Positions 6,801 through 63,497 of a stretch of DNA of 64,000 bases are shown here, piece after piece. The notes beneath the pieces were generated by a model. That model was given only the letters and a program-made list of their open reading frames with translations, ran no database searches and was not told the origin of the DNA. The first letter of the stretch is position 1; every line of letters starts with the position of its first letter. A program made the translations under genes and the position numbers. The stretch is from assembly GCA_026419785.1 (NCBI GenBank), contig JAODTK010004543.1, forward strand, positions 1 through 64,000, read 5' to 3'. The DNA is from Sclerodactyla briareus (taxonomy: Eukaryota; Echinodermata; Holothuroidea; Dendrochirotida; Sclerodactylidae).

Positions 6801-9800
6801 CATGATTCCTTTTGTTTAGGAGTCATCAGCTTTGAAGATATTGAAATGGTTTCAACTTGTGAACACTCTTCGAATAATTGATGCTGCTGATTGAATGAAT
6901 CACGGCAGAAACAGTGCATTCATTCCATGTTTGCGATTTTTTTTGGCTTGTCATTTTAATTCTTTTGAATTATAATGAAAAGAAAAGAATATCTCTGCCT
7001 CTGGACCCACAATTTGTTATATTCTTTATAGAAAACAATCACCCCCAGTCTTGTATATCCCTGCGACACTGGAAAGTGTCAGGGGATATTATGAGATTGG
7101 TTGTGTAGCGCCGTCATCGCACCATTTAGGCTTTTAGGCAATAACTCAATTTAACGCTTATCAGATGATCTGAAACTTGAAGACCTACACATGTCTGCAC
7201 CTAGTGAAATCGGATGAGTTCGGAATAGGGGCTCGCTATCATTGCATGGGGGCCGCTAATGAATAATTTACGTTGAAATTTTCAAGTTGGTCGGGATTTT
7301 GAACGAAACTTGGATGGGTATAGGGAATTAGTTGATCCTGAAAAAATCTTGAAGGTTCATTTCAAGGTCATCGGAGGTCGGGAATTGCAGAATTTATGCG
7401 ATTCGAAACTTGGTAGATTTGAATGAAACTTGGTGGATGGGGCCTCACATTCGCCCTCACTAAGTAGAGTCATTCCAAAGCAACGTGGGTCAAATGTGCA
7501 AATTCATGTGCCTATTAACTTCATGGAATCACAAAAAAATTGGTTTGGATGAAGTCTTATTCTTGGTTTTGACCAAAAGGGGGTTGTATTATGGGTTGTG
7601 GATAGCTACTTCTTCCCAAGTATTGCTCAAGCGGGAGATACACGTGGGCGGGTTACCCGCCCACACATGTTTAGTTTTGTTGACTTTTTTGTTACAGTGT
7701 GATAACATAACAGTATCTCGATCGCCAAGCTGAGATCACCTGAACAAGAATGCGTCATCATTAACATTGTGAGACTAACCCTTGTGGACCGTGATGCTCT
7801 GTGCAGCTGCGGAATTGTGTACAAACTTTCCATGGAATAACAGTAACCCTATTGTTTCATGTGTAGCATTGGGATCATTGTGTTTGTAGAAATGTGAGAA
7901 CTGAAATATGCATATTTTGGCTTGTTGTGATAAAACCTGACATTGGATCAAGCTATATGGTTATGTGGGTTGATGGGCTCTCCATAATGAGTACATGACC
8001 CATGTTTTCGGAGTCTGGGTCATGCATAGGGCATCTGAGGGACCGATTCAAGGCTGAAATTGCTGTATGGGAGACAAGAGTGTCTAAGGGTTGGCTGTTT
8101 ATTTACAGTATTGGCCCCTTGTTATAGAGTCTGGAGATTCTGTGAAGGATTTGTTAGTGGTGGGAAATTTTGGAAAATATGGATAACAGATCTTTGTATA
8201 CCGTCCTCGGGAATGTTTAATGGTACACTCTGATGTGACGTTTTGAGTGTTCTTGTAGGCTCGGAAAGAAGCCAAACGAGAAGGTGATGCAGGGTATGGA
8301 TTTTGCCAAATATGAGGGCACAAGGAAAAGATAGGCAACTTCAAGATTGAGCCCCCGGCCTGTTCCGTGGCGTGGAGACCACCCAAGGGCCATTGCTGAA
8401 GAACGGATCCAACCAGCCAGGTCATCATTAACTTAGCACGTAAGTGACATTACCCATGACTAGGGCCCGGGAGAATCCGTTTGAAATGGCAAATTCGCGC
8501 GCCATTACGACGGAAAAGTGTTTTTTTTTCGGTATCATACGATCGCCTTTTCCGCCACGCTTCGGCGCCATGTGTTACTGTTTCGACGAAAGTCAGGCTG
8601 ATGATTATCGCAGCTTGTGTATTGATAGGGTTTTTGCCACTTCGCTGGTCACAGAAGAAACTAACCCAAAATCGTACAATCGACGCGTAAAGGGTACAAT
8701 TGAAATGTCTGGCCATTCAATGGATCTCGGTCGCTGATATATTTGGAGTTCGGACCTTCGAGGTGATGAATTCGCTCTGTTACCTAGGGCCATGATTGAT
8801 AATTTGGAATATAAAGATTGACCAACGGGCTAAAGATGTCTGCTCTGCATGGGCAATAGTGCGTAAGGAGATGATAAAACTTCCCTGAAGAGGGACGTTA
8901 AAACTGGTTATGAAGTGATGTAATTGTGTACGACAAGCTGAAGAACCCAAATGAGGTATTTTTCGATTGTGGGGCCCTTGACTATATTCAACACTTGTCA
9001 CATAGTCATGTGATAATCATGATTGACAAGCTGCTCTGGGGAAGCATGGTCCAAAGTCAATCCTGTCAAATCACGGAACCAATTGCGACAAAATCCGCTC
9101 TCCAGGGCGAGATGAATGATGATGAACACCGTTCACGCACTACATTGTCGCGAACGGCTGTTTATGTTTGCACGTCAAGCTGGATTATCTTTGCCCTGAC
9201 AACCTCAGAGGCTTTGGTGAGTGTATCAAAACTTTATATAGAAAATAAACGATCACAGTTTTATATAAAGGAATTGAGATTGAAAGGAACCGGAGACTGC
9301 ACATGATTTCCGTGATAGACAGGCACAAATTTTCCGACATAAGTCCGTGATTTTTCCAGAAATCCGCGAGAACGCCACCGAATCGAGCATAAACATGTCA
9401 TTTTCGTGATTCGCGGGAATTCTCCCGGGCCTACCCATGAAAGACTTCTCCCTTCCCTTCTCGGATGATGATGACTGCTAGAGGATGGTCGAGCCCACAA
9501 ACTTAGGGAAAAATGCCAGGGGGTCCTGGTTATACAAGGTTGAGAATACCTGATCAAATTTGGTCAAAGTATTCTTATGATTTTTAGCCGGGTTGTAAAA
9601 TTTGACATTTTACGCTTTCGAAACACAAATTTCAAACTAGGACCATGTGTAGCGGGCATACGACACGTGTATATCCCAGACATTTGAGCAGTCATTGGGA
9701 GAAGTATCTAACACCCATTAAACACCCCCTTTGGTCAGAAACAAGATAAACTTCATCCAAGTTTTGTTGTATCCATGGAAGTTAATATGCACATGAATCA

Positions 9801-12800
9801 TGCGATTTGACACCACGATAGCTTGGAATGACTTTAATTGTGAGGAACACATGTAGCCCCTACCGCCCAAGTTTCGTTCAAATCTGAAAAAGTTGGAAAA
9901 TCGCATAATTCGCAAATTTGACCCCCGAGACTTGAAATGACCTCAAATTTCGGGTCAACTATATTCATACCACGAAGTTAAGTTCGTTCAAATTGACAAA
10001 GTTTGGAAAATCCCAAAATTTGGCAAATTTGACCTTCCGATGACCTTGAAACGACCTCTATATTTTTCAGGTAAACTATAGTACCTACTACCAGTTTCGT
10101 TGGAAATCCGAATAACTTGAAAAATGTCGCATAAATTATGCAACTTAAGCCGCCCCAGCATTGCAGTGATGCCACTTTCGAACTCAATCCGAGATTTTCA
10201 CTAGGGTGGACAAGTGTACCAAGGTTTAGATCAATCGGATGACGCGTTGTTAAAGAGTTATTGCGATAACGCCTGAAGTTGGCGGAAGGGCGGAGACCTG
10301 GGACAGCATGGGGGGGAGGTGGCAACACACCCAAAACCAATAATATCACCGGACACTTACAGTGTCCCGGGGCGGGATTATGAGAACTGAATGGCGTCTC
10401 CACCTTCAGTCTGAGTCATTCAAAATCAGAGAATGGGGTCACTGTAGGTCATATAGGGTCCAATTGGCATATTCTGGCAAATCTACTGGGTCATTTTTCA
10501 ATGGTTAAAGTCAAGGAATATAAAGATGGACTGGACACTTTTTCAGCTCTTGAACATGATTATGCCTAGTTACATGGAGTCATGGAAAGGAAAAAATCAA
10601 TTTATTGCAAATGAGGCTGTTAAATGGTAAATAAAACATGATGGTTGGATTGAGTTGATTTTGAAGGTCCTGTGATGAGTTCATGTACTTCATTGATTTT
10701 AGAATAGAGATCAGAGAGTAATCTAGGTCGCAGATTGCTGAAGTCTGCAAGGAAACAAAAAAAAAAAACTGACAGTTTAGTTTCTTCAGGGAGAGACAGA
10801 CCTCGACCTATTGTTCATTTGGAGATTAACGTTCATGTGGTGACAGGTAAAAATGGGACATAATTGTGCTATGGGCAATTGGTCTGTGTACCCCAAAGAC
10901 CACTCGTGAGCAGTTGCATTGGACTGTAAAATGTCTATCAGGTGTGTTTGTCAAATTTGTGAACCCTTATTCATTCACATGTCAATCTTGCAGGGACTCT
11001 GTGATAGATAAGCTCCGAGGCCACAGGTTGGACGGCCGTTACCACGATGACAGCGTTACATGGCTGGTGTCATGGACAGAGAATATACAGGGGATCCAAC
11101 AAATATATCATGCTCAACCCAGCTCTAGGCTAAGCGTCGTACTTCTGGCTTGAATAACTATTTGGATGCAAGTATTCAAATGTCACTCATACGTGCGTAC
11201 ACATTCCCCTTTGCTTGCTGAATCAGGTAAAGGACCATGCACTCTGTATATTCAAATGCTTCCTCCCATCGAAATCAGATCAAGTTATCATTGATTATTC
11301 TTATATTAATCTTTGGAGCAAAAAGATTTTGAATGATTGTACAGGACAGTAGTTTGGTTTCCGTCGGTATAGTGTGATTTGAAGGGCCTACTGCAGGATT
11401 GGCTATACAGAGGTATATTGTGGGGAATGGGAAAAACCCCCACCCAATTGTAGAGTCCATGATTCTTACCCACCCACTACAGCCATCCCCTCTCACCCCC
11501 TCATCATTTTTTAACGTGTAGATTCATTACTCATGAAAAATATTTAAGGTTGTGGCAAGTATGATGTGAACATCATTTAGTCTTTATAATAATGCTTTCC
11601 GATTGCACAAAAACACATGCACAATCGGAAGGCCTCATAACGAAAAAATGGATGAATGTCAGCATTTGGACTGACACCTTCCTCATTAGGTATATAGTGG
11701 ATTTATTATTCAAATCCTGCAGTAGTATATACGTTGTTTCTTCCATCCAATCCCTGCTGAGCAATCCAGTGGGTGACACACCTAAGTTTCATTGGCAGTG
11801 TTGCATGTGAATTTGAGAAATATAGGTCATGCCCATATTTTTCACTCCTTAGGGTGAGAAAGGAGTGGATGAAGTATGAGGGAGCTGCGAGGAAGCTCGC
11901 AGAAGTGTGTGGATGGATCAGGGAGACTACAAAATGGACTGGAAGAAAGAGAAAGGAAATGAGGATGACGACCAACGAGCTGTGGCCCCTTTACTTGTAT
12001 TGATAAGGTAAGCATCTAATCGAGAGAGATTTTGCTATTGAGGTGCTACGCTTAGAAAGTGGATGCTGCCTTGAGTTCTCATAGTTTGATATTGGAGGCA
12101 ATTTCTAATCATACTGTTCAGGATATGATGGACAATGGGTAGCCTGGGAAGTCGAGAATCTGTACTGTACACTGCTCCCTTGTAATTGCCAGTCTGTTCA
12201 CTAATGAAACATGATGGTCATTACAGTGGAGTTGGCTGGAATGAGCAGGAATGATTATATAATGAGGGGGTAAAATTACAAAGCATTTGAGAGCAATTCT
12301 GAATCAATTGGTTTTGCTCCTTTTCATTCAATCAGCCCGGCCCTGAATAAGCAGGTAACGAGAAGGAAGAGGGAGAGACGGCTGATACCGTGGGCCTGCT
12401 GCTCCCTCCGGGTGGAACACATCAAGCTACATGAAGAGGATGACGGCCAGGAGTTTGTTGTAGAGTTTGACTTCCTGTAAAGGACTCCAATCAGTACCTG
12501 AAAAAAGTGTGCAGTGGAGAAGAGGGTAAGTCAATGACTCAAGTCATCACTGAACAGTCAGGCTGCTGGTACCAACCTGTCTTGAAATTTCAATGCCTGA
12601 GGTATGTTGTAATTGATCTTGGAGGAAGAGTGCAATTAAACATACAAACTTGGTGCTTTTCAGCTCACTTCAGTCATGTGGCTGAGTGAGCTGTTGTGTT
12701 TGAGTATGTCTCTTTATGTCTCTTTACTCGTCTTCGTCCACGAATGATTCAAATTGCTGCTACTTGTACATTCTTGGAAGGATCATAATCACATTGATCA

Positions 12801-15800: not shown

Positions 15801-18735
15801 TTTTTGTGTGTGTTTATGATGGCAAGCTACAATCTCTGCCAAAAGTAGTTGGAAACAAAAACTGCACGTACTGCAAAAACCCCCAGCACCCCCGAGTCAA
15901 TGTTGAATGTTATTAGCTTTCATTCATCCATATGAACATTTCCCCAACATTGAAACGGGGGGTGGGGGGGTCTGGGTTGCATTGATTGATCGTCCCAGCT
16001 CCAAATACATCATTTCAGGAGGATTTGTGCCAACAATATGGCGGAGGATTGTAGCTTAGCAGGATCTACCTGTGAGATTCATCGGGCCCATCATTAGTAA
16101 ACCGTAGAAGCTATGATGATGTGGTCTGGCATATAAAACTGAGGTAATTGAACAGATGTTTCTGGGGTGAATAGACATGTGAGGCGTCAGCGGGTAGACT
16201 GTCGACGTGTATATTTCTGCAGGAATGACCTTTGTGGACCTCGTTTAGATAAAGCACATCAAATCATGTCCATTTGACCTCGAGTGACTGTTAAGTATTA
16301 CCTCTGTTCAGGACCAACTGTAGTCCACTGTCTCCAAGTTTCATATAAGTTAAACGTTGAACAATTTCAGTCCATATTCTATTCCATATTTAAATCTGAC
16401 ATAGAAAAGCTCCCCTCAAAAAAACCACAAATTCGACCTCTGGTGACCTAAAGTCACTGTCATGTTTTCGAGACCACTTTTTAACAACAGCCACCAAGTT
16501 TTTTGTAAATCGAACTAACTCTACTTTCGCAGAAAACCCTTTTGACCTTGAATCACTATAATGTTTTGTCCAAAGCCCAGCAAGTTTTGGTTAATCAGGA
16601 CTGCCCACTTACAGACGATTGGTGGAAAAACGTGGGATTGCCGATGATGCCTGAAGTTCTGGCAGGGGGCGGATAGGCCCCCGCTACACCCCCAAAACCA
16701 TAACATGCTAAAATAGGTCTCATTTGCATATTAAATGCAAATTTTGTCCAATTTTGACAAAATTAGTGCATATTGTCCACTTCCAGAGGAAGTCATCCAA
16801 TGGGACCAATAATTATGTGAGAATTTTGAAAGTATGTGGTGTGTGGAGTTGAGTTTGTTGGATTTTCATTTAACTTGGTGAATGTGTAGTAGGGGGATGA
16901 ATGTTAATCGCATTTGCATAGTTATGCAATATTTCAAAGATTCATTAGACTTGAAAAAAACTCACTGAATGTGGAACCTGTATAACCTGTATTTCCCATG
17001 CATCTTGTTTCTGAGACAGCCATTCAATGATCCATCCGCATGATGAATTTCTAATGTGGATTCTTTGTATGTTCTTGAGTGAATAGTTCAAAATTTCAGG
17101 TAGGTAAAGGGCAAATGAATATTCCATGAAATTCACGGAATTCTCCAAGTGGATCTTTGCATGTTTCCTGCCCGATTGTGGGTCTATATGATATCTTGGA
17201 ACCCAAAGGTTGCTGGTTTCGGGATCCTAGATGTGTGTTGGTTTCTTCTCTAGGCCGGAAGATCAATCTGCCGCCAGGTAGGCCGAGTAATCAGGAAAGC
17301 TTGATTGGGCGTGAATTAAACATTGGATCAGTAAATTCTGGCTGCTCCCAGCCCACTCAGCTGGTGTTTCCACTGGGGAAGAGAGCTGCTGTCCAGATGG
17401 TACTGCCCCCATTGTTCGTACATAGTTGGCCAGGGTTGAGCTGTCAGGATCATAAGCTCCTTGGCTAGGCACTGTCGCAGTATGCACCTCTAACTTTCCT
17501 CTGTCCTGGAGTGAATGTAAATTTCTGACTGACTAAACAGGAGATATTTTGGTGTGAATATTACATGCCAGGCACTGCTCATTAACAACCTCGAAATTAC
17601 TTATTGTGTTCTGTTTGTTTTGATAGGTTGGTGGAGAGGAAGAAGAAAGCCGTGGAGCGGCTGGAGGAGCAGCTGAGCAAACTAGAGATGCAGGCCACAG
17701 ATAAGGAGGAGAACAAAGAAATAGCTTTGGGAACCTCCAAATTGAACTACCTTGACCCAAGGATTAGTGTAGCATGGTAAGTACTGAACTACTTTGATCC
17801 CTATGATCAGTGTGGTGTGCCTCGTAAGTACTGAACTCCCTAGACCCAAGCTTAATCAGCAGGTTAGGAATTGTCATTAGATCACTCCCAGAGAGGTAAA
17901 CTGCCTCCTGCTAACACAGCCCGACTCGGTGTCTGTTTAAATTTTGCAAGAGCATATTGTGTACTGGCTTGTCGGTAGCAGCAATGCAATGCCAAGACCG
18001 AAGTGACCCGGGGATACGCTGCCTATTTTTATTCTCACGAACGATAGCAATTTGCATGTCTCTGAATAACTCTAACTTCACAAAAGGGCAAATGCATGAT
18101 GTCTGCTCGCTGTCTATATCGGATACTGCTGACCTTGGGGTGAAGATTCTGAATTCTTTCAAGTTCCTCATCACACTTAACAGTTTTACTGTTGTTAACC
18201 CTATTGTTATTCGCTTGGAGGAGACAATGTGACCATGCAAGTTATAACAGCATGTGTTGCTGCGAGCTATTATGGGATGTGATCGTGAACACATCAAGCA
18301 TGCATCTATAAGTTTACAGCAGATATATGTTGGTCGAGTCTTTAGCCAGAAGAAGGTAGGCCATCACCTGGACCAATCTTTTTCATGATTTCATTTGACT
18401 GATTCTCATCCAAATTTCCTGACCGAGGTACACCTTGGTCACTGTTACCTGCAGTAGAAACCCAAATCTCAGCCAGAACTGTGCTGTAGAAATCAAGATC
18501 ACTGAGCGCAAGCTTGTTTTCACGACATGTATGGTATGTATGTGGATGTTTGTTTTTCTTTGGTATCTGCCAATAACCTGAACCAATTATTTTGCATTTG
18601 CAAGTAATAAACCCACTCCTTTTTATTTGCAGGTGCAAGAAGTGGGAAGTGCCAATGGAGAAGGTCTACAACCGTACTCATAGGGACAAGTTCCGATGGG
18701 CTATCGACATGGCTGATGAAAACTATGTTTTCTGA
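801..18735 (+). CDS. TOP1: DNA topoisomerase I (type IB), 14 exons placed, 5' partial
   Basis: Nuclear type IB topoisomerase: it nicks one DNA strand through a 3'-phosphotyrosine link, lets the helix rotate, and reseals. Translated exons follow human TOP1 in order: acidic/lysine-rich N-terminus, core start ([12 protein letters not shown]), core ([40 protein letters not shown]), [31 protein letters not shown], lysine-rich linker, and C-terminal [15 protein letters not shown] ending in DMADENYVF plus stop. The human R590 equivalent is the AGG at 13940-13942, H632 is CAT at 15519-15521, and the nucleophile Y723 is TAC at 17748-17750. The K532 equivalent (AAG 12480-12482) is readable one frame off. 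The R488 codon is scrambled. Nine or ten exons contain 1-2 base indels while GT/AG sites stay intact, so sequencing error is likelier than decay. Introns exclude a processed pseudogene. The start codon is upstream of the window. Confidence 0.95.
858..1200 (+). other. TOP1 intron
   Basis: 343-bp intron from GTGAGT to TTCTTTGCAG. No repeat or other feature seen. Confidence 0.6.
1201..1260 (+). CDS. TOP1: TOP1 exon, acidic N-terminal region
   Basis: Bounded by TTCTTTGCAG and GTAAACT, 60 bp, phase 0, encoding a peptide with [11 protein letters not shown]. Like the preceding exon it is charged and low-complexity, as expected for the N-terminal domain. No indel is evident. Assignment rests on splice sites and phase. 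Confidence 0.7.
1610..1860 (+). repeat. Dispersed repeat family C, copy 1
   Basis: Shares a long diverged stretch with 13010-13270: AGGAAGAGACTTA, a GTGTGTATG-rich run, a GGTTGG...ATCTGATTAGATTT block, and AAGCTtgtAATCAAGATTA-type ends. The reverse complement of 63840-64000 carries the same blocks. No coding capacity and no terminal structure recognised. It is probably the 3' part of a non-autonomous element. Confidence 0.6.
2313..2400 (+). repeat. Dispersed repeat family G, copy 1
   Basis: Contains ACCCAGGCGAGACACTGGGA followed by ATTGCCTTGT, matching 13505-13575 on the same strand and 60065-60160 inverted. Non-coding and of unknown class. These three copies are the only ones I found. Confidence 0.5.
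2558..2674 (+). CDS. TOP1: TOP1 exon, acidic N-terminal region (frameshifted)
   Basis: Starts after CCTTCAG with [12 protein letters not shown]. One extra base near 2594 moves the reading into a second frame that continues the acidic run ([20 protein letters not shown]) to about 2665. Donor GTAAGG at 2675. An alternative short exon ending at 2592 before GTGAGT is possible. The longer form is preferred because the acidic coding character continues. Confidence 0.55.
2675..3014 (+). other. TOP1 intron
   Basis: 340-bp intron ending in a strong pyrimidine tract TTTCTTTCTTTCTCAG. No other feature seen. Confidence 0.55.
3015..3270 (+). CDS. TOP1: TOP1 exon, basic region and start of core domain
   Basis: First half encodes a lysine-rich stretch ([12 protein letters not shown], then KKKRKRPK) that fits a nuclear localisation signal. 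Second half enters the conserved core: [18 protein letters not shown] then KVKF, against human [17 protein letters not shown]. Base-level damage lies between about 3150 and 3195 (core-start WW/EEE region), and one extra A sits at about 3261 before the final YDG. Donor GTGAGT at 3271. Confidence 0.85.
3271..4346 (+). other. TOP1 intron
   Basis: About 1.1 kb with no recognised repeat. A run of C at 4190-4197 is the only compositional oddity. Confidence 0.6.
4347..4467 (+). CDS. TOP1: TOP1 exon, core domain (AEEV...FFRDWRK)
   Basis: After CCACAG. Reads TDEDAE, then [13 protein letters not shown], then HKNFFRD in successive frames, matching human [33 protein letters not shown]. At least two indels break the frame. 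Donor GTCAGT at 4468 falls right after DWRK, so the next exon joins without a gap. Confidence 0.8.
4468..6027 (+). other. TOP1 intron
   Basis: 1.56 kb. A B-box-like GAGTTTGAATCC at about 4649 lacks a matching A box. Otherwise nothing recognised. Ends in TTTCTCTTTCCTTAG. Confidence 0.55.
6028..6148 (+). CDS. TOP1: TOP1 exon, core domain ([10 protein letters not shown]...KEENK)
   Basis: Encodes [15 protein letters not shown], then CFTRIHKY, then [15 protein letters not shown] one frame over, against human EMTNEEKNIITNLSKCDFTQMSQYFKAQTEARK. A missing T near 6091 explains the main frame change. Donor GTTAGC. Confidence 0.85.
6149..8258 (+). other. TOP1 intron with Helitron copy
   Basis: 2.1 kb holding one near-complete short Helitron (7049-7674) and two fragments of repeat family D (GGATCAAGCTCATACT at about 6761 and a related one at about 7949). 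The remainder is unremarkable. Confidence 0.6.
7049..7674 (+). mobile_element. Non-autonomous Helitron, copy H1
   Basis: Starts with TC followed by TTGTATATCCCTGCGACACT and a 5' stem-loop (CGACACTGG / AGTGTCAGGG). Ends with a perfect 10-bp hairpin GTGGGCGGGT/ACCCGCCCAC at 7643-7663, then ACATGT and TTAG (CTAG in other copies) before T. Internal modules contain GAACGAAACTTGG and AATTTATGCGAT. No Rep/helicase coding. The class is assigned from terminal structure and not from a transposase. Confidence 0.75.
8259..8439 (+). CDS. TOP1: TOP1 exon, core domain (YGFC...FKIEPP)
   Basis: Starts [18 protein letters not shown], then [14 protein letters not shown], then CSVAWRPP in place of LFRGRGDHP, and IQP plus SQVIINL in shifted frames. 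Human: [32 protein letters not shown]...PEDIIIN. At least three indels. A consensus donor GTAAGT begins at 8440. A hAT-like element begins 20 bases after the donor start. Confidence 0.9.
8461..9433. mobile_element. hAT-like MITE (non-autonomous DNA transposon)
   Basis: Left end TAGGGCCCGGGAGAAT at 8461. The right end is its inverted copy ATTCTCCCGGGCCTA, ending at 9433 with one G fewer. Flanks repeat CCCATGAC (8453-8460) and CCCATGAA (9434-9441), an 8-bp target duplication with 7 matches. An 8-bp duplication and a TAGGG-type terminus are known for the hAT superfamily. No transposase domain is recognised inside 973 bp. Short open frames at both ends of the element are probably chance. Confidence 0.65.
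9637..10383 (-). mobile_element. Non-autonomous Helitron, copy H2
   Basis: On the minus strand it begins TCATAATCCCGCC, passes a stem-loop CCGGGACACT/AGTGTCCGG, and ends in a degraded hairpin followed by ACATGGTCCTAG and host T. Three to four internal modules with AAGTTTCGTTCAAAT and AATCGCATAA lie between. The base before TC is C instead of the expected A. Confidence 0.75.
10994..11135 (+). CDS. TOP1: TOP1 exon, core domain ([13 protein letters not shown])
   Basis: Encodes DSVIDKL, then [19 protein letters not shown] and TENIQG, then KYIMLNP and PSSRL in two frames. Human: [39 protein letters not shown]. Very strong match. The break near 11093 loses one base. Donor is probably GTCGTA at 11136. 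It is a weak site, chosen because the next exon opens with GEK. Confidence 0.9.
11136..11852 (+). other. TOP1 intron
   Basis: 717 bp, no repeat recognised. Ends TTCACTCCTTAG. Confidence 0.6.
11853..12007 (+). CDS. TOP1: TOP1 exon, core domain ([12 protein letters not shown]...IDK)
   Basis: Reads GEK, then [21 protein letters not shown], then KMDWKK and KEMRMTTNE, ending in IDK, against human [48 protein letters not shown]. Several frame changes. Donor GTAAGC at 12008. Confidence 0.85.
12008..12335 (+). other. TOP1 intron
   Basis: 328 bp. Nothing recognised apart from splice signals. Acceptor TTTTCATTCAATCAG. Confidence 0.55.
12336..12525 (+). CDS. TOP1: TOP1 exon, core domain ([14 protein letters not shown]...VEFDF)
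   Basis: Encodes [14 protein letters not shown], then [18 protein letters not shown] and EFVVEFDFL, then KDSNQYLKK and AVEKR across three frames. Human equivalents surround R488 and K532. The catalytic lysine lies at 12480-12482 (AAG before GAC TCC) in the shifted frame after one missing base. The R488 codon falls in a scrambled AATAA stretch at 12347-12351. Donor GTAAGT at 12526. Confidence 0.9.
13010..13270 (+). repeat. Dispersed repeat family C, copy 2
   Basis: Best-preserved copy. Blocks GGAAGAGACTTAGTGGTCAC, GGTTGGGTGCACACGATCTG and AAGCTCATTAGCAAGATTAC match 1610-1860 directly and 63840-64000 in reverse complement. Confidence 0.65.
13480..13580 (+). repeat. Dispersed repeat family G, copy 2
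   Basis: CATGAACTAGTTGGTTGTTT, then CGCAACCAGGCGAGACACTT and GATTGCCTTGT are the reverse complement of 60065-60160 and resemble 2313-2400. Confidence 0.6.
13812..13994 (+). CDS. TOP1: TOP1 exon, catalytic core ([13 protein letters not shown])
   Basis: Encodes [19 protein letters not shown], then LQD, then [20 protein letters not shown] after frame changes. The Arg of KVFRTF (AGG 13940-13942) is the equivalent of human R590, which contacts the scissile phosphate. At least two indels between 13870 and 13922. Donor GTAAGT at 13995. Confidence 0.9.
13995..15447 (+). other. TOP1 intron with family D repeats and G/C runs
   Basis: An 18-base C run lies at about 14017-14034. Family D modules (GATCAAGCTCATCCG, GGATCAAGCTCATACATG) occur at about 14150-14600, and a G run at about 15110-15123. 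The C and G runs may be length-inaccurate. Confidence 0.6.
15448..15669 (+). CDS. TOP1: TOP1 exon, catalytic His and linker domain
   Basis: Encodes [20 protein letters not shown], then [20 protein letters not shown], then [12 protein letters not shown] and, after one missing G at about 15604, [18 protein letters not shown]. Human: [38 protein letters not shown]. The His of CNHQR (15519-15521) is the H632 equivalent. The lysine-rich tail is the coiled-coil linker. Donor GTGAGT at 15670. Confidence 0.95.
15880..16010. repeat. Dispersed repeat family F, copy 1
   Basis: GAACATTTCCCCAACATTGA followed by a G-rich run and a C/T-rich tail. Its neighbour blocks (CCCCCGAGTC, AATGTTGAATGTTATTAG) recur at 29930-30060. 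Non-coding, class unknown. Confidence 0.5.
16171..16710 (-). mobile_element. Diverged Helitron relative, copy H3
   Basis: The left edge has ATAGACATGTGAGGCG and a CGACGTGTATATT box like the 3' ends of other copies. The interior has TTTGACCTTGAATCACT-type modules and the right edge ACCCCCAAAACCATAACATG. The 5' stem-loop and TC end are missing, so this is 5'-truncated or a sister subfamily. Confidence 0.5.
17627..17776 (+). CDS. TOP1: TOP1 exon, active-site tyrosine
   Basis: Clean 150-bp exon, no indel. Encodes [20 protein letters not shown], then [20 protein letters not shown] and [10 protein letters not shown]. Nearly identical to human ESKKKAVQRLEEQLMKLE...[15 protein letters not shown]. 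The Tyr of KLNYLDP (17748-17750) forms the covalent 3'-phosphotyrosine. Splits the Trp codon at donor GTAAGT. Confidence 0.97.
17777..18632 (+). other. TOP1 intron
   Basis: 856 bp. An early stretch repeats the donor neighbourhood imperfectly (AAGTACTGAACT at 17780 and 17826). No other feature. Confidence 0.6.
18633..18735 (+). CDS. TOP1: TOP1 terminal exon
   Basis: After TTTTATTTGCAG. Encodes [20 protein letters not shown], then [13 protein letters not shown] and TGA at 18733-18735. Human end: [33 protein letters not shown]. No indel, native stop. Confidence 0.97.
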
Positions 18736-23439: not shown

Positions 23440-23736
23440 CCGGCAAGATATCTGAGGTAATAAGATTAACTTTGTGTTTTTCCAAAAACTGACAAATTCA
23501 ACCTCTGGTGACGTTGAAATCACCGTCATGTTTTGGGACCAACTTTGTCCCACCCACAAAGGTTCTTGTAAATCGGATATTTATATAAAACGTGTATTTT
23601 TGTGGTAAACATGCGAATTAGAGGGCAGCAGACATGAAGTGATGCCCACGGATAAAACGTTATTGCGTAAAGTTCAGCGGCAGTGGCCACACCCTCATAA
23701 TATCCCGAACACCTAAAAGTTGTTGCGGGGATATGA
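23440..23736 (-). mobile_element. Helitron fragment, copy H4 (5' part)
   Basis: On the minus strand starts TCATATCCCCGCAACAACTT with the second half of the stem-loop GGGATATTATGAGGG, then module sequence shared with H3 (CGTCATGTTTT). The 3' end with hairpin and CTAG is absent. Confidence 0.5.
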
Positions 23737-35034: not shown

Positions 35035-36123
35035 TCTTTATTATATCCCACTCGGAGGATATTCTGGTTTTGGCTCGCCGCGGTATCCGCCGCCGCCGCA
35101 GCGTGGCGTCGCGTCCGCCGCAGCGTTTCTTGTTAGCGCATAAACTCTCCAACACTTTGTCCTTTCGAGCCGAAACGTGGCACACATGTCAGCCTAGTGA
35201 ATCTCGGAGGAGTTAGAAGTCGTGGCGTCGCCACATGAAAGGGGTCCGCGAATTGCATAATTTCCACGATTGTGACGATTTTCCCGTTAGAGCACAAGAA
35301 ATCTTTAACGCTTTATCCCATTGATCTGACACTGGGACACTGTCCCGCCTAGGAAATCTCGGATAGTGGAGTGGGGCATCGCGGCACTGCTGGGGCCGCT
35401 AATTCGGATAATTTTGGCGAAATTTTCAAGTTCGTCGAGTTGAACGAAACTGGTGGGTAGGGGATATAGTTGGATCCGAAAAATGTGGAGGTCATTTCAA
35501 GGTATGGAGGTCAAACTTGCAAAATTTATGCGATGTTCCAAACTTCGTCAGAATTGAACGAAAACGAACTTGGTGGATGGATGGGGGCTACATTGTTCCT
35601 CACGAAGTTAGAAGTTCCATTTCAAGCATCATGTGTCAAATTCGCATAATGTGGGAAATGTGGGGGTCATTTCAAGGTACCAAAGGTCTCAAATTTTGAA
35701 ATTATGCGATTTTCCAAACTTTGTCAGATCTGAACGAAACTTGGTGGGTAGGGCGGGAACTATAGTTGGTCGGATCCGAAAAATGTGGAGGTAATTTCAA
35801 GGTCATCGGAGGTAAAACTTGAAAAATTTATGCCGATTTCCAAACTTTGTCAGCTTTGAACGAAACTTCGGTGGATGGGGGATACATCTGTTCCTCACAA
35901 ACTTAGAAGTCATTTCAAAGCCCTCATGTGTCAAATTTGCAAAATTCATGTTTGCCTATTAACACCAACGGATTACAACAAAACTTGGTGGATGAGGTTT
36001 ATTTTGGTTTCTGACCACACAAAAGGGGTCTTATGGGGTGTTAGATACTCTTCCCAATGATTTGCCTCAAACAAAGTGGGGATATACAGTGGGCCCGTTT
36101 AACCGCCCTACAACATGTCCTAG
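35035..36123 (+). mobile_element. Non-autonomous Helitron, copy H5 (longest)
   Basis: A|TC start at 35035 (TCTTTATTATATCCCACTCG) and CTAG|T end at 36120-36123, with hairpin remnant GGGCCCGTTTAACCGCCC just upstream. 1,089 bp. Four internal modules with GAACGAAAC at 35442, 35556, 35732 and 35858. The 5' part has CCGCCGCCGCAGCGTGGCGT. No coding capacity. Confidence 0.8.
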
Positions 36124-41726: not shown

Positions 41727-42376
41727 AAAGACCTGTGTAGGCGGGTGCTGAACCTCAAGGGTTATATCCCTGCTTTTGAGCACTCTTGGGGAGAAGTATA
41801 TCTAACACCACATTATAAAGACCTCCATTTCGTCAGAAACTAATGGATAGGCCAATTCATCCCACCAAGATTGGAATCCGTGGAAGTTGACAAAAAAAGT
41901 CACATAGATTATGCAAATTGACCCCTGCGGGCCTTGACAATAATGCTTCTAGAACTTCGTCAGGAACAAAGGTAGCTCCCCATCCAACAGTTGGTTCGAA
42001 TCCGACAAAGTTGGAAATCGCATATAAATTCTGCAAATTTGACCTTGGAATGACCCTACAATTTTTCGGGATCAACTACATGTATAATCCTACCACCAAG
42101 TTTCGTTTGAAATCAGATAACCTAAAAATTTTATAGAGTGAATTTTCGCAAATAGCGGTCCCAATGCATGCATTTGCAGTGATGCCACTTTGGAACTCAT
42201 CGAGATTCATGTGTGGGCAGACAGGTGTCCCAAGTTTCAGATCATTCGATGAAGCAATTTAAGAGTTATTGCCGCTAAACGCTTAAGTTTCCCGACAGCG
42301 GAGGGAGCATGGGACGGCGGCTGGCTACAACCGAAACCATAATATCAGTACACTTCCCGTTTGCGGGGAGGATATA
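41727..42376 (-). mobile_element. Non-autonomous Helitron, copy H6 (degraded ends)
   Basis: Minus strand. The 3' box GGGATATAACCC plus GCACCCGCCTACACAGG at the left, with CTAG lost. The interior has modules CAAGTTTCGTTTGAAATC and AATCGCATATAAATT. The right end RC reads TTATATCCTCCCCGC. Confidence 0.65.
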
Positions 42377-48430: not shown

Positions 48431-51307
48431 TCATATCATAATAGAGGAAACATACAAAAAAGTGTAGGCATTATGTGAAAAGTTGCCTAATGAGCTATCA
48501 TATGAAAAATAGGTTGGATCAACAAATATGGGTCAGGGTCTCATTGAACAACAATCGCACCTGAGAGGTCTAGCTAAGGTGGAGGTCAGTAAGGGCCGAA
48601 TGAGCTATATATAACAAAATGGTAAAAGTAACCCTTGATGATGCATTGGTCAATCTAGTGGTACCTCATGGTATGTTCCAGAACACCACTGTTATGTGAA
48701 AAAATTGGCAAATGCATTGATCCCTACAGGGTAATTTGGTTATGGTGATACTGGTCGGTGTTATAATCAAAATAGTGAGTGGTACTGTTGGGTGTTGAGG
48801 TCATGATGATGGCAACTTGGCGAAGGTGCACCTCCATACATACTGTTACATTTTTCCCTCACACAATATGTCATTACTGCTTGACTTTATGTTCAAGTTA
48901 GAAATTGCATTCTTAAGGTATTTTAAAATCAGTTCACAGCAAAGAAAGTAGAGAACGCCATATATGTGCACTAGAACCTTTGTCTGTTTAGTGAGTGTAA
49001 ATGCATTAATAACTGCAGGGTTGCTAAGTTTGGGTGATAGGCTAGAGAGGAAATTTGTCAGTCTGAGACTATTTGAGCGGAGGTTGCGTGGAGGTGAATT
49101 GTTGGGGCAAATACACTAAGATTGCAGGGGAGAATGCCCTCTCCCAGCCTAGATAGTGTCTATATGCAATCAATATTTAGGTCCCATTGTCGCAAACTGA
49201 CTATGTTCAGGAAAGAAAAACAATCTTCTTCGCAGTGGGTTATACACAGGAAGGTTCATCTCATGTAATATAAACTCATAACTGCCTTTTGGATAGAAAT
49301 AACTGACTTTTGTATAGAAACCAGCTCCACCACCACTCTCAATTAACCATTCCAAGAATTTTCATCTGTTGCTGTTTAGTAAGCTGTTGTATAAAAGTCT
49401 TACCCCAGCTGTGGATCACTAGCCTGAGTAGTTCATGATGTTTATAGCGTGGACTAAACTACTTGCACAAACACTGACCCTCAACTGACTACACAAGGTA
49501 TTAGAGGCCAGTATAGTGTTGTGTAAATTATAATGGTTAAACAAATGCCTTGTGACTACAGACAGCTTTCCACGACGGTGTGCTATTTGCAACCATGTGT
49601 TAGACGACAAAACAGGTCTGACGCCGTAGAACTAGCCCGACCTGTCATGGGGGGCATACTGTTACTCCTGTAAAATAAGTAATTTCCATAACCGGACGGT
49701 AAAGACCAACTAAGAACACTCGCTGAGTCCATTACACAGAAAGCAAGATTGTCAGTAAGGCTTGCATCTCGATGCCTACTGCTGTAGTTACGAAATGTAG
49801 AATGAAATATGCAGTACACATCACGATTTACTGTAGAAAAAATGCTGGGCAATTGTTCCGATTGTTTTTAGACTTGAATAAATAAAAGGCTTGCAAATAG
49901 TGCTAATCGCCCCATCAGCATTTCCATGTTCATTAAATGCAATTATGTATTGTTTTTATTTTTTTGGAAGATGTTTGGATTGGCAGGGCATGCTTCATAG
50001 TTAATTGATTAGCCAATGGTGACATGGGGGAACATTTTATGATTTTGCAATGATATTCTCTACTGAGCAATGTTTCCATCAACTTTGAAAAATTCACTTC
50101 TCAAGAAATTTCAGCTATGTCCGGTTTTGGGACTGCCTGAAATTGTCCTCAAAGGAGTGAGCCTCATGCTCAATGAGGGAGGACTTGGCAGCCCTGTAAA
50201 TGCTTTATCATAGAAATTTTATAAACCTATCCCAATGTACCAGCAGGTGTGGGTATAGTTTAAAATAAAATACCAATAAACAGATGACCTGATAAGAAAT
50301 GTAAATAGAGCTGGTGGGGGACATGGGGGAAGGAGAAATTGCATTGTTTACAAACATTTAATAACAAGGTTTTCATAATATCAACATTCCCTATGACAGT
50401 AAAAATTTCACTTTTTGGAACACAGTGCAAGTTTGCATTTTAAAAATCATTAGAAGCAATTAATAATCTGCTTTTGTTGTTTATTGCAGCTCTGCCTGGG
50501 GAAGGTGATTCTAGTGCTCTAGTTACCCAGGCACAGGGTCACCCGCATGGTGAAAACTCTCTGCTGTGAAAGCTTGTCAAGATCCTGAAGACATCCATTA
50601 TGAGCACCGTTGTCACGAGGGATATATGTAAGTAATCTAGGAAAACTGTAGGCAGGTTAAACTGCTGACTTGTACATCACCACATTTGATCAATCAGTTC
50701 CGCTGAAGATCAGCGACGTAATTCCCATGCATAGGACAAAGGGCCCAAGTATGAGGCCGCTGTAACTTTCAAGGGACTGATCCGATGTAAAGTAGAAGTG
50801 TACTGGCAGTCAGGTATGGTTAGACCGCATTAAGGCATTGTGGTGAGCCACCAACGGACCTTGGTACTAGGTGGGGGTGACTAACACAGGATGCAGAAAT
50901 GGGATTGATAGTAGAGAGGGGCAAAAGTTTGGCTGAGAGGCGACCTATGAAAGCAACGGCCCGGGGCAGTCCACTATGGTGGTCATTACACCCAGGAGGA
51001 CAAGTTACCCTCGATGAGTTCCGGGGCAGAGTAGGTTGACGTCCCATAAATCCTGGAACCCTGGCCATCGAAAACACAACACAATTGAACCCAGCATAAT
51101 GTGTGTATACCTATGCTGGATGTCGTCAACCTGAAAGCAGGCTTGAAAGTGATAGGGCCTGACCATGTTAGCAGAATATTCGGAGATAAGGCATCCGCCA
51201 GAAACTAATGTGGTCCAAAGGCCATCTGGACTCTCTACTCAAAACTCCTGCCGACTCGCTGATGTTTATAACTCAGCATTGGATTAACCGTGGGTGACAG
51301 TGTCATC
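48431..51307. other. Low-repeat interval with one exon-like segment
   Basis: Notably free of the dispersed families. Contains the exon-like interval 50490-50627. Confidence 0.35.
50490..50627 (+). CDS. Exon-like interval, unknown
   Basis: Strong acceptor (TTTTGTTGTTTATTGCAG) and consensus donor GTAAGT at 50628. Reads LPGEGDSSALVTQAQGHPHG, then ENSLL, one TGA at 50567-50569, then KLVKILKTSIMSTVVTRDI in the same frame. With the error pattern seen in TOP1, the single TGA need not be real. Helical, armadillo-like in feel. No family assigned. Confidence 0.38.
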
Positions 51308-51954
51308 TCATCAATATCCCCACAACAACTGGAGTGTCCTGGGGATATTATGGTTTTGGGATGTCGCCGCGGCCGTCTCTCTGCCGCCGAATGCTGTCGC
51401 TCGGAAACCTAGCCCGATAACTCTTCAAACTTTAATCCGATTGCTTGTGCAATCTGGATGAATTTTCGAAAGGGGCATCACCACTGCTTTCTGCTGCCCT
51501 CTGTTTTGCAGGTTCCACACAAGCATACTGATTTATTAATATCCGATATAACAACACGAACACTTGGTGGGGAAAAAAGTTAGTCCCAAAAACATAGGGT
51601 GATTTTTCAAGGGTCCCGATTAGTGTTTTTTTCCCTTCTCGCCCACAATTTTCCTACTTTGTCTGATTTGAAGAAAACTTGGTGGAGATGTCGAGTGATG
51701 TAATCCTAAACAACATTAAGGTCATTTCAAGGTCACAGGAGGTCATTTGCATAATATCAATTTTTTCGGATTTGAACAAAAACTGCAGTGGATCTGGACT
51801 ACAGTTGGACCTGAAAAACGGTAGGAGGCATTTCAAAGTCACTGAGAAGGTCAATGGACATAATTTTTGTGCTTCCTCCTCTAAACGAGGTCCACAAAGG
51901 TGTTTCTTCTGGCAGGATATACACGTCGGCAGTTTATACCCGCCTGCACTCTAG
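51308..51954 (+). mobile_element. Non-autonomous Helitron, copy H7
   Basis: TC start (TCATCAATATCCCCACAACA; the exact first base is ambiguous by a few positions), 5' stem-loop with GGAGTGTCC and GGGGATATTATGG, modules with AAAACTTGGTGG, and ACCCGCCTGCACT then CTAG|T at 51951-51954. Confidence 0.75.
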
Positions 51955-53858: not shown

Positions 53859-54493
53859 CTAGACATTTGTAGGCGGGTAGAACGCCCACGTGTATATCCC
53901 CGCTTTTGAGCAAATCATTGGGTAGAAGTATCTAACACCCATAAAGACCCCCAGTTGGTTCAAGAAACCAAGATAAAACTTAATCCACCCAAGTTTTGTT
54001 GAATCAATGGAAGTAAATGGCACATGAATTATGCGAAGTGACCCCGATGGTTTGTGTGAAATGAATTCTGATTTGCGAGGAAAACAAATGTAAGCTCCCA
54101 TCCACAAGTTTCATTCAGATCGACACAGTTTGGAAAAAATCGCATAAAATTGGCAATTTGAAAGTCATGAGCTTGAAATGACCTCCCATTGTTCGGGTAT
54201 AAACTCATAGTCCTCCCACCAAGTTTTGTTCAAATCGATTAAAATTTCACCTGAAATATGGCCAAATTAACAGCCCCCAGCATTGCAGTGTGCCCACCTA
54301 TCCGAGATTTCACGAGGCCGACATGTTGTACCAAGTTTCAGAATCAATCGGAAATAAAGTGTTTAAGAGTTATTGTGCTGACGCCCAAAGTTTCCAGCGG
54401 CTGCGGAGCATGGGACGGCGGCGGCGGCGGGCCCTGACACACCCCAAAAACCATACTATCCCCGGACACTCCAGTGTCGCGGGGATGTAATGA
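53859..54493 (-). mobile_element. Non-autonomous Helitron, copy H8 (reference copy)
   Basis: Minus strand, 635 bp, both junctions as expected: host A then TCATTACATCCCCGCGACAC, and ACAAATGTCTAG then host T. Stem-loops CCCCGCGACACT/AGTGTCCGGGG near the 5' end and GGGCGTT/AACGCCC-type near the 3' end. A (CGG)5 tract at 54414-54430. No open frame of note. Confidence 0.82.
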
Positions 54494-54559
54494 TATAACC
54501 AGTCCAATTATAGCACAAACTCCAACAAAAGAGTGTCAATGCGCTCTCCGGAGGATGCT
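54494..54559. other. Short spacer
   Basis: Between Helitron H8 and a LINE fragment. Nothing seen. Confidence 0.3.
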
Positions 54560-54850
54560 GAGAGTTGCAGTGGAAACATTAGACTGAGGAAAGGAAAAAA
54601 GAGAAGTTTTCCGGACGACGTCTGAAAAGAGCGATAGATTAAGAGACCTCAAGAGACCTCAAATCAACACGAAGGGAGTTGCATAAGCGGGGAACGTAGT
54701 TAATAAAAGGCTTACGGTCACAGGGTTTTATTTGAGAACCTGGGGAACAGAAGTTGTGTTGAGGATGGGAGTTGAAAAAGGTCAATGTTGGCTCTGTGTG
54801 TGTAGTAAAGTATGTTAAGCATTGGTTACTGATCATACTGATCAATTTTC
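54560..54850 (-). mobile_element. LINE ORF2 C-terminal fragment (CR1/L2-like)
   Basis: Minus strand reads LTFFNSHPQHN, then FINYVPRLCNSLRVDLRSLE, and RRRPENFSL one frame over. This matches the WNSLP...L..FK pattern at the C-terminal end of CR1/L2-type LINE polyproteins, with Trp replaced by Cys and one frameshift. No reverse transcriptase core is present beside it. Confidence 0.45.
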
Positions 54851-56199
54851 AGGGTTGAACAAGAATGCCCAGCCACATGGTCGAGGTGAGCAAAGAACAA
54901 TTTTGGCCACAAAAAAAATTCAACAATACATAGCCCCCCATACTGAAAGTTCAAACCAACTCATGTTCTTTTTTCCACAGTATCATGCCAGCAATATTGG
55001 GAGTTGAGAACAAGCAACAGGGTCGGAGGTCAAACTGTTGTTTGCCAGCTTCTTCTACTGATGACATGCTGCCCGATCAAAAGCTCTGACTCATTACGGT
55101 AGTCTATATGTTTTAGATCCGTTCCAACAGTGATAGGACGTGCTATATGGTACTTCGGGAATAGACGACAATAGTACAGTGTGAAACAACTTTTTTTTTG
55201 AATATTAATATTTATTGGCACTTTTCAACATTACAACGGTTTTATCGCCTATTATGAAAGGGGGCACAGGTTGTAAGCAGTGGTAGAATACTTTGGTGGT
55301 GGTGTTCTGGTCTTGACAGTATTATTATTTGATATAGTTCTAAAAAGAGACCTTGATTTCAACAGTGTTGTAAAAAGTCATGACTTGAGTCACTACTTTT
55401 AAAAAAGGTGATGACCCGAGCAAATGTTTGAACATGTTCCCCATTTAAAGAGTAAAGTGACTCAGTCAGTAACTCGGACTTGATGCACAGAGAACAGGTC
55501 TGTAACTTGATTTTGCACGGGAGTATGATAGTCAAATGCAGCCAGTTTAAATTGGCCGTTGGAACTTATGGAATTGGAAGTGATACCAAGGCAGTAAAGC
55601 ACTTGTCAGCAAAATTTGTTTAAAATGATTACTGGATTAATTATTAACACTGGTATTGTTAATGTAGAGTTAATTCATAATAAAATGGAGAAGAAATTGT
55701 CATACTTCAGTCAGATTCTGAAACTCATATCTCGTCACAGGTTTTTGTTCTTTAATGTGTGTTTTTAATATTTCATTACAAATAGAATCAGTAAATTAAA
55801 GCAATTATATGCACTTCTTGGGAACTAATTTTGTGAAGGGAAGGTAGAAAAGAACTAACATTTGGAAATAAACTATTGTTGAGGTAGGTATTTATCATAC
55901 ATGTAGGTTTGTGAGGATTTGATATATTGAGGACCTTTTTATGTCCACAGTCTTGGAAGGGATGGTCACGTGTTCTACAAATTATCGGGCGATAAGGAGC
56001 ATGCACCCTTGTGGTAGCCGCTGTGGAGGAAACAATCTACATTTTCCACCGAATTTCTAGGTTACAGGAGTCGAGTGCTTGTTTCATTCGTGACAAGTAC
56101 CCAATCTACGTGGGAGATGATCGCTAGACAGAAATATTTGTCGAAAACAGTTGTGCTTATCTGTACTTACAGAAACTTTCAGACAACTTTCTTCACGTT
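54851..56199. other. Intergenic, nothing recognised
   Basis: AT-rich. A 72-codon minus-strand open frame at 55788-56006 has no recognisable domain. Confidence 0.35.
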
Positions 56200-57600
56200 A
56201 GTTGCCGATTATGTGCTTCCAGCATGTTGAGGCATACGCACGCAAAGCTTAGGGCTTTGCCTCTGCTATTCCACATATACTTCACGTTGGTGACTTTCTG
56301 TGTACTTCTTGATGGATTAATATCTGTGTGTGCAACATAGGGATTATGCCGCACTATACCAATAAAGAACTACTTAGCCATAACAAAGGAATGGCCACCC
56401 GCTGCCACAGGCAGTTTGGAGCTGGAATATGAAGTCGGTGGGTATCCAGTGGAAACGATCAACCCATAGAGGATCAAAGGGATCAAGGCACAATCAGAAT
56501 CACCAGGGGCGACGACGAGCGATCGCTCTGCTACGTAACGTGATCAACCTAGGCCTATGGAACGCTCACTCGGTAAGAAACAAGAGCCCTATGTGTTATG
56601 ACTATGTGGTTGAACATGATGTCGACTGTTTATTGATAACTGAGACATGGTTAAATGTATCAGACCCTGTGGTCATTCACGATCTTACACCCCCGGATTA
56701 CAGCTTTTGAACGTGCCAAGTAGCAGCGACACATACGGAGGCGGTATAGGTGCCCTTTTCAAGACGGAACTGAAGCTGCAAATCCTCGACACGGGTTGGA
56801 GTGCTCGCACATTCGAGCACGCATGTTTCACCGACCCGCGAGGACCTGTACTACTACGTATATACAGGCCACCTCCCTCATCAGGATGTTTCAGGACTAA
56901 TGACTTTCTGGCTGAATTCAACGATTTTGTCGATTTTATCAACACTATCCATACTAAGGTTTTAAGAACTGGTGATTTTAATGTAGTTGATCCCCTACAT
57001 CCATGTGTCTCCTTTCCTAACAACATTGAGCAATGCCAAGCTACATCAGTATGTCCATGGGCCCATACACACGCTAGACCTTGTGATAGCTCGCACCGAA
57101 GACAATCTAATATCTACGTGTACATAGATTCCCCACTGTCTGATCACAATGTTGTTTTGTGCAAATGACACCGACCGATCCTGGACAAGATCACCTCTCT
57201 CGTGCAAAACCTAAAGGACGTCGATCACTAAATTTGAATCTATGGTTCAGATGTGTGATGTTGATCAAATGACAGAGCACCACATTGATCAGTGATCTCC
57301 GTGTTGGTGAGGGAATGCTCCAGCCAGAGTGGTTACCCAAAGGTCAAGAAAACGACACCCGTGGTACAGCAGTTAATTCATCAAACTCGTCTGGTTCGAA
57401 GGAGTCTTGAAAGGAAATGGCGCAAAACCAAGCTCGAGGTACACCGTCAACTCTATGTTCAGCAGCATAACGTCGTTTAATGTTGTACCTACCGGACAAG
57501 AATTCTTACTGCCGACTCGAAGTCTCTCTTCAAGAAAGTTAATGAACGAACTACTTCACAGAACGTGAAGTTACTCCCTGTTCATGAATGAATTATGCAA
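56200..57600 (+). mobile_element. LINE fragment with AP endonuclease (CR1/L2 superfamily)
   Basis: The translation shows the APE-type endonuclease motif series in order: WNAHSVRNK (56559-56585), LLITETWL (56629-56652), GGGIGALFK, TGDFNVV (56970-56990) and SPLSDHNVVLC near 57130-57165. These are the Asn, Glu, Asp/Asn and His positions of the family. After about 57290 comes the basic linker RSLERKWRKTKLEVHRQLYV that precedes the reverse transcriptase in CR1/L2 elements. The frame changes near 56690, again near 57030 and between 57170 and 57290, and a stop follows at 57478. The reverse transcriptase is absent here. The left limit in the 5' UTR is a guess. Confidence 0.85.
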
Positions 57601-58225
57601 CAACCCTTCGCATGATACACCTCACAGGTTTACATAATTAAAATTATTTATATATTTTCCAACACAAGCTATCCGTTATTGTGAATACAGGATTCTGATT
57701 GGCTAATCCCAATCAAGTAGCCATTTTTGCAATAACAGTCAGTCTTTTTGCAATAACAGTCAGCTGGTCAGTAGATACACACAACAATCAAATACTCTGC
57801 ATTTGAGATTCGCTGCATCCTAAATAAACGCAGTAGTAGTAGTAATTTTTAAACGTGAATATAAAGTTGCGTGAGCCTTTGGGAGTTCGTTTACACGCGC
57901 AGATATGGTTTTCAGTATATGCACGCTTCAGAGGGCGTACTGCCAGGCCTCAACGGAATACAAACCAGCGAAACGACGCGTCGCTCATTGAATTGGTGAG
58001 TGCCATGTTCACATGCGGGCAGTTTGGCACGCGTGGTTTGTATTGAGTCTTCGTGAAGTACGCACAGCCAATCATTTGTACGCAATGCATTTTACTTTAT
58101 TTCGATCGAACTAACGCAATAGTTTACCCGAGCTCTTATTTACTGTTTATAGATACAAAGACTAGAGCTAGGGATATAGATACTCTAACGTTTGGGTATT
58201 TCCCTTTCTTTGCGGTCGCAGAATT
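57601..58225. other. Intergenic with short direct repeat
   Basis: TTTTTGCAATAACAGTCAG occurs twice in a row (57723-57741 and 57744-57762). AGTAGTAGTAGTA at 57831. No gene. Confidence 0.45.
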
Positions 58226-58396
58226 GGAATAATCTACAGCAGGTCGACTTTTAACGGGTTCATAAACAGTCTCGACTCGACTCTGAATTTAGGTAAATAA
58301 CAAACTCGGCTGCGCCTTGTCTGTTATTTACCTAAATTCAGAGTCTCGACTGTTTATTCACCACCAGTAAAAAGTCGCCCCGTTGCAGTTTATTCC
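58226..58396. repeat. 171-bp fold-back (long hairpin)
   Basis: Left arm 58226-58303 and right arm 58317-58396 are inverted copies (CTCTGAATTTAGGTAAATAA against TTATTTACCTAAATTCAGAG). About 80-bp arms with few mismatches and a 13-base loop ACTCGGCTGCGCC. Probably a MITE-type element or the end of one. No clear target duplication. Confidence 0.85.
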
Positions 58397-58799
58397 TTAA
58401 ATATACAACTATGTGCAAACTCCATGTATCATGTTAGTGTGTGTTAGGCACCTAGGATGGAACACATTGGGATAATGAAGAGAAATGAGCATTTAGGCCT
58501 ACTGCTGAGACGGGTATGTGGCCAGCTGCCCCACCCCCCCGATTACACCAGATGTGCTTAGGTTTACTAAGATTTGATGATACTTGAAAGAAGTACTTTC
58601 CAAATCTAGTCAATCCATTTAAAAATGTAGCTTTCCCTTGACATTTACCAAAGGACGGAGTGTTTTTTCTCTTTAGGCTCAGAAAGCAGCCATGCTAGTT
58701 GAGCTATTTTGATCTGCATGTTAAAACACCCAAAACATTCTATCTATCTATTCATTTATCTGTCTGTTTGTCCATTCCGTCAACTTTTGCCTTCTTCTG

Positions 58800-59990: not shown

Positions 59991-60064
59991 AGCAGGCAAA
60001 AACACATATTCTTAAATTTTGTTCATTGTTTCTTGTGTGATGCCTCTTTCATATGTCACCTATT

Positions 60065-61055: not shown

Positions 61056-61094
61056 TAACTTACTTCAGGGCACTTACCTTCTGGACGTACTACC

Positions 61095-63462: not shown

Positions 63463-63497
63463 CTCCCCACTAAGCCGGGACCTCGGGTGCTAGTTGG

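Follow-up and report, generated by a model that had tools for sequence, protein, structure and literature searches.

The window analysed here, a single stretch of 64,000 nucleotides of presumably animal DNA with a G+C content of ~43%, carries a dispersed family of repeats built on a two-ended plan, in which a hairpin and a subTIR mark each end. The plan is clearest in the c7049 and c53859 copies. The members of the family are distributed over both strands, as follows:

7055..7674, plus strand: c7049 copy, 620 bases; hairpins at both ends the best kept of the family; 3′ end TTAG
9637..10381, minus strand: c9637 copy, 745 bases; two internal units ~114 bases apart
16172..16731, minus strand: c16171 copy, 560 bases; both ends decayed yet recognisable; 5′ block ATATGC badly decayed
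23484..23734, minus strand: c23440 copy, reduced to its 5′ part, with the 5′ block at 23734; no 3′ module discerned by eye
35043..36123, plus strand: c35035 copy, 1081 bases, the longest; three internal units, spacing 175 and 125 bases
41728..42375, minus strand: c41727 copy, 648 bases; TCTT in place of the expected CTAG
50637..50685, minus strand: possible orphan 3′ end (c50640) with subTIR-like and palindrome-like sequence and CTAG; weak support
51314..51954, plus strand: c51308 copy, 641 bases; closer to c16171 and c23440 than to the other five
53859..54488, minus strand: c53859 copy, 630 bases; 5′ end at 54488, 3′ CTAG at 53859

Comparison of the window with itself by blastn matches the c7049, c9637, c35035, c41727 and c53859 copies all to one another, with a best E per pair of 1e-57 to 5e-11. 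The matches of c51308 are confined to c53859 (3e-7), c16171 (6e-16) and c23440 (2e-9). The six-copy family on both strands described by the first-pass annotation is thus real, five copies being mutually matched and c51308 being linked weakly to c53859. The same annotation had listed two further copies as partial, which holds for c23440, reduced to its 5′ part, but not for c16171, which keeps both ends in a decayed state. Across the 21 pairs formed by seven copies, aligned identity is 50-68%, against a mean of 38% and a maximum of 41% in one mononucleotide-shuffled set; the ends of these seven copies were anchored by eye, from the 5′ block to the 3′ CTAG or its variant. The copies are strongly diverged, and this divergence suggests that they are old and probably dead or long inactive.

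A short motif, ATATCCCCGC, occurs 10 times in the window at up to one mismatch when 2.27 occurrences are expected, a count reached by none of 100 shuffles. By position, seven of these ten occurrences sit at the end of some copy. The 5′ block reads ATATCCCC(GC) and is followed within ~40 bases by an inverted copy, GGGGATATTATG, with which it forms the 5′ hairpin; an inner stem, GACACT/AGTGTC, is present in c7049 and c53859. The terminal features of the c53859 copy illustrate the plan at both ends:

54479..54488, minus strand: 5′ subTIR ACATCCCCGC, found by the ATATCCCCGC motif search; 8-base inverted match to the 3′ subTIR
54456..54488, minus strand: 5′ hairpin composed of the subTIR, the inner stem GACACT/AGTGTC and the inverted repeat GGGGATAG; DNA fold z -3.8
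53894..53903, minus strand: 3′ subTIR GCGGGGATAT (inverted ATATCCCCGC), found by motif and pattern searches
53869..53889, minus strand: 3′ palindrome GTGGGCG...CGCCTAC before CTAG; stem present in the fold, z only -0.8

Folding energy was assessed as DNA against 200 shuffles for eight ends per side, and the resulting z-scores are rough, as some anchors lie a few bases off and the c41727 segment misses part of the outer stem. On this scale the 5′ hairpin reaches -5.0 in c7049, -3.8 in c53859, -2.0 in c23440 and -1.7 in c51308, and it is at best weak in the four other copies (c9637 -1.4, c41727 -0.4, c16171 0.0, c35035 +0.3). Counts of paired bases in the stem arms were not used as evidence, since the arms were picked by eye and the counts are biased upward. 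Pattern searches agree with an organised 5′ module: ATCC...GATATTNTG has eight matches, five of which are 5′ ends of copies, compared with a mean of 0.38 and a maximum of 2 in 50 Markov controls. With a less strict hairpin pattern, ATCCC...GG[GA]AT, by which many hairpins are scored on both strands and so enter the count twice, there are 19 matches for a control mean of 9.08 and a maximum of 15, and a pattern for the 5′ inverted-repeat tail with six mismatches is mildly enriched (26 matches, control mean 17.85, maximum 24).

Near the opposite end, the 5′ block recurs in inverted form as GGGGATATACACG, followed by the CCCGCC palindrome arm and then by CTAG. Inverted ATATCCCCGC is found near the 3′ end at 36076, 41764 and 53894, so that the motif marks more than the starts of copies, and in the corresponding copies (c35035, c41727 and c53859) the 3′ repeat lies ~35-47 bases from the end. 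The two subTIRs of c53859 share an exact 8-base inverted match, ATCCCCGC, that beats 40 of 40 shuffles; an exact 8-base match in c35035 likewise beats all 40, and in the remaining five of seven copies the match fails to beat every shuffle. A 21-base pattern for the 3′ subTIR, allowing up to seven mismatches, is clearly enriched in the window, with 16 matches compared with a mean of 3.3 and a maximum of 8 in 20 controls. A 23-base pattern for the 3′ end is not enriched at up to eight mismatches (nine matches, control mean 6.95, maximum 12). The stem-loops at both ends proposed by the first-pass annotation are thus borne out in the best-kept copy, c7049, whose 3′ hairpin has a z of -3.7, but energy lends no support to the 3′ hairpin at the seven other ends (z from -0.8 to +0.9). 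CTAG is exact at five of the eight 3′ ends (c9637, c35035, c51308, c53859 and c50640), in keeping with the CTRR consensus, whereas the other three end in TTAG, TCTT and TCTA. In c41727, c16171 and c50640, the 3′ end departs from the full consensus and was anchored by eye. The last of these, the possible orphan end at 50637-50685, has 7 mismatches in 21 positions to the 3′ subTIR pattern and a fold z of +0.2. Directly past it on the minus strand, at 50600-50640, lies ATATATCCCTCGTGAC, a sequence resembling a 5′ subTIR; the two might represent a decayed head-to-tail arrangement, and blastn gives no match between the stretch around 50600-50640 and the family.

The limits of the copies also emerge from the conservation of individual columns, a contrast that arises in part from anchoring by eye. 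Identity per column in the eight 5′ ends ranges over 0.54-1.0 at positions +1 to +6 and stays at 0.18-0.39 upstream, except at -2 (0.54), the sole raised column upstream of the subTIR. For the eight 3′ ends, values of 0.46-0.57 in the last four bases are followed by 0.75, 0.75 and 0.39 at flanking positions +1 to +3, and mostly by 0.18-0.32 beyond, with single columns up to 0.54. T occupies 3′ +1 in seven of eight ends (P 0.0009) and 5′ -2 in six of eight (P 0.008), both positions having been chosen post hoc with some ends anchored by eye. Such seemingly T-rich flanks agree with the Helentron plan. Empty sites were sought by joining the 300-base flanks of seven copies and comparing them with the window, and no match spans the joint by at least 15 bases on each side. 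With ends set slightly off, two alignments cross the joint by two bases only, one from c7049 to its own 3′ flank and one from c16171 as an inverted match within its own flank, and neither marks an empty site. As no empty site was found in the window, the precise termini of the copies are putative, and so is a T-rich target.

Between their ends, several copies contain repeated internal units that are detected by blastn. There are three such units in c35035, 175 and 125 bases apart, two in c9637, 114 bases apart, and one each in c7049 and c53859; c51308 contains a short piece. No copy holds an array in the output of Tandem Repeats Finder. Elsewhere in the window, there are tandem arrays at 21237-21889 (126-base unit, 5.1 copies) and at 19176-19486 (24/48-base units), as well as another repeat of ~1 kb, whose two copies at 25319-26293 and 28146-29143 are 69% identical.

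The family members are apparently non-coding, and the longest stop-to-stop ORF listed for the window encodes 298 aa. The window has 58 ORFs of 100 aa or more, and Pfam returned no match for the 20 of them that were scanned, nor for the stretches 54500-59870 (plus frames) and 60000-64000 (six frames) translated with stops as X. This silence extends to overlapping plus-strand ORFs at 56384-57168 that by eye resemble the endonuclease domain of a retrotransposon or a Helentron, which indicates that degraded domains may escape detection. Searches against the PDB gave only two matches to these ORFs, both at chance level (E 1.2), and they were not taken as a link to Helentrons. The region 60000-64000 is richer in G+C (54%) and carries the longest listed ORF (61461-62357, plus strand), which by eye resembles a fragment of a tyrosine-recombinase retroelement and on which Pfam is also silent. 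Rfam at gathering thresholds gave no match in the window, and the tRNA search found none. Scans for exact patterns in viral contigs and prokaryote genome contigs gave 0 matches, a result of little weight, as these collections are not animal genomes.

Altogether, these findings make it very probable that the family consists of short (560-1081 base) non-autonomous rolling-circle transposons of the Helitron2/Helentron branch, similar to HINE and DINE-1 elements. As no Rep/helicase coding was found in the scanned ORFs and stretches, the assignment to this branch is drawn entirely from terminal structure. The 5′ subTIR (or ATIR) lies at, or a few bases from, the 5′ end placed by eye and pairs with an adjoining inverted copy to form the 5′ hairpin, while the 3′ subTIR is located upstream of the 3′ palindrome, which is the organisation of Helitron2 and Helentron ends. 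Counting against this assignment are the 3′ hairpins that energy does not support, the 5′ hairpins and subTIR matches that are weak in several copies, the 3′ end pattern that is not enriched, the lack of listed tandem arrays, and the CTAG end, which is a trait of canonical Helitrons.

It was as canonical Helitrons that the copies had been interpreted by the first-pass annotation, and a canonical family of Helitron1 elements, with TC...CTRR ends, an A|T target and an incidental 5′ stem-loop, would account for the exact CTAG at five of eight 3′ ends and for the A that precedes a TC in three of eight copies (c35035, c51308 and c53859). In the published portion consulted, the oyster genome paper also describes elements that have TC and CTAG ends, insert at A|T and bear subTIRs, some of them with a 5′ inverted repeat (PMC7992393). 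The TC, however, stands at varying distances from the conserved 5′ block. Its offsets in the eight copies are -6; -9/-4/-2; -8; -10; -11/-8/-6/-3; -5; -2; and, in c16171, none within 12 bases. Given that 51% of random 12-mers of the window contain a TC, its presence in seven of eight copies has a P of ~0.04. With TC found 2 to 11 bases away from the 5′ block, or absent, the constant TC start that had been proposed is not upheld. Nor does the A|TC junction, which had been claimed for two copies, find support as a property of the family. Moreover, the relevant sections of Bao and Jurka describe canonical Helitrons as having neither a 5′ hairpin nor ATIRs (PMC3627910); here, a fixed 5′ TC terminus was not found, and the best copies have a 5′ hairpin. 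A canonical Helitron1 origin thus appears improbable. Of the assignment proposed earlier, the non-autonomous rolling-circle repeat of the Helitron superfamily is still the best reading, and the canonical 5′ end is not supported. The 5′ stem-loop itself is real, as its z-scores of -5.0 in c7049 and -3.8 in c53859 indicate, yet it seemed unusual because the comparison had been made with canonical Helitrons only. It is expected in the Helitron2/Helentron branch, of which it is a published and, for Helitron2, a defining hallmark in the sections cited (PMC3627910), and it does not set apart a distinct lineage.

A variant of the Helitron2/Helentron reading, with which its likelihood overlaps since it is a special case of it, holds that the family is intermediate between Helitrons and Helentrons: its 5′ module and subTIRs would be those of a Helentron, while its CTAG end would be functional and its target A|T. 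The co-occurrence of CTAG with a 5′ subTIR and inverted repeat argues for it, such mixtures are reported in the oyster (PMC7992393), and a CTAG-ended proto-Helentron that inserts at A-T has been described in Phytophthora, in the part of the study drawn on here (PMC4067079). On the other hand, the 5′ flank shows no preference for A, the T at -2 and at 3′ +1 being the favoured bases, and without empty sites the copies are indistinguishable from ordinary HINEs. An intermediate lineage is accordingly an unlikely reading, though less so than a canonical Helitron1; if true, it would show that each terminus evolved in a step of its own. Inverted repeats toward both ends could also evoke a cut-and-paste element of the MITE type, bounded by terminal inverted repeats, and DINE-1 was itself called a MITE (PMC2374699). 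This candidate was rejected and is considered very improbable, as the asymmetry of the ends, with a 3′ repeat set well inside the end and followed by a palindrome arm, is unlike that of a MITE.

For a family of the Helitron2/Helentron branch, one can propose a model of movement in which an autonomous element located elsewhere would supply Rep/helicase in trans, and the hairpin-marked ends would be recognised and nicked. One strand would be peeled off through rolling-circle replication up to a stop point marked by the 3′ palindrome and the 3′ repeat, and the copy would then insert into a T-rich site without target duplication. We infer every step of this model from published families. The importance of the family lies mainly in annotation. 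A search restricted to TC...CTRR ends with one 3′ hairpin may put the 5′ end in the wrong place, which was the case in the first-pass annotation of this window, and the density of such elements is of note, with seven two-ended copies and one 5′ fragment within 64 kb.

The ends of the copies can be compared with those of known systems, each of them considered here through the published sections consulted. In Helitron2, as described by Bao and Jurka, the 5′ repeat lies 0-2 bases from the end and pairs with downstream bases to form the 5′ hairpin, whereas on the 3′ side the repeat is inverted and subterminal, upstream of the hairpin (PMC3627910). These authors suggested that, at the end of replication, pairing of both repeats opens the 5′ hairpin and fixes the endpoint (PMC3627910). 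The copies in the window share with Helitron2 the 5′-ATIR within a 5′ hairpin, the 3′-ATIR upstream of a putative 3′ hairpin and an apparent 5′ preference for T (PMC3627910). They differ from it by their CTAG-like 3′ end, by the absence of an autonomous partner in the scanned part of the window, and by a 3′ repeat located ~35-47 bases from the end rather than ~20-30 (PMC3627910). The distance is in line with that of HINEs, in which the 3′ subTIR lies 38-60 bases from the end (PMC4067079). Thomas et al. report an equivalent plan for Helentrons and the non-autonomous HINEs, which insert into T-rich targets without modifying them (PMC4067079). The subTIRs, the palindromes at both ends, including the 3′ palindrome, and the apparent lack of coding capacity are common to HINEs and to the present family, and T-rich targets may be as well; a difference is that here CTAG precedes the Ts (PMC4067079).

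DINE-1 of Drosophila has an ATACCC-type subTIR (e.g., TATACCCTTGCAG) with a partial inverted repeat adjoining the 5′ copy, a 3′ stem-loop and a TT target, but its subTIR sequence is different, and the likeness is drawn from the ends rather than from the DINE-1 core (PMC2374699). Fusarium elements have a plan in common with the Helentron/HINE group (PMC5148889). Among oyster elements, Cg_HINE of the Pacific oyster presents a 5′ subTIR and inverted repeat, internal repeats, and a 3′ subTIR and palindrome, with a microsatellite where c53859 and c35035 have a CCG-rich stretch (PMC7492417). Oyster monomers measure 160-180 bases (PMC8268682), whereas the internal units here are spaced by 114-175 bases and belong to none of the arrays that Tandem Repeats Finder reports. 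The oyster Helitron-like elements, with a mean length of 1,092 bases, have TC, CTAG and a 3′ hairpin, and subTIRs are found in 257 of 751 of them, 33% of those having a 5′ inverted repeat (PMC7992393). They resemble the copies in the window, where the 3′ hairpin is clear in c7049 only, by joining CTAG and a 3′ hairpin with subTIRs and, in some, a 5′ inverted repeat, but their TC 5′ ends and their A|T targets (86%) are not seen in the copies here (PMC7992393). The oyster genome paper regards its subTIR-bearing elements as possible intermediates, so that the combination of CTAG, subTIRs and a 5′ inverted repeat is already published (PMC7992393). The plan as a whole is in print, in the sources cited, for the oyster, flies, mites, algae and fungi, and the family is an ordinary repeat family whose paired end structures correspond to the signature published for a known group of transposons, and not a new kind.
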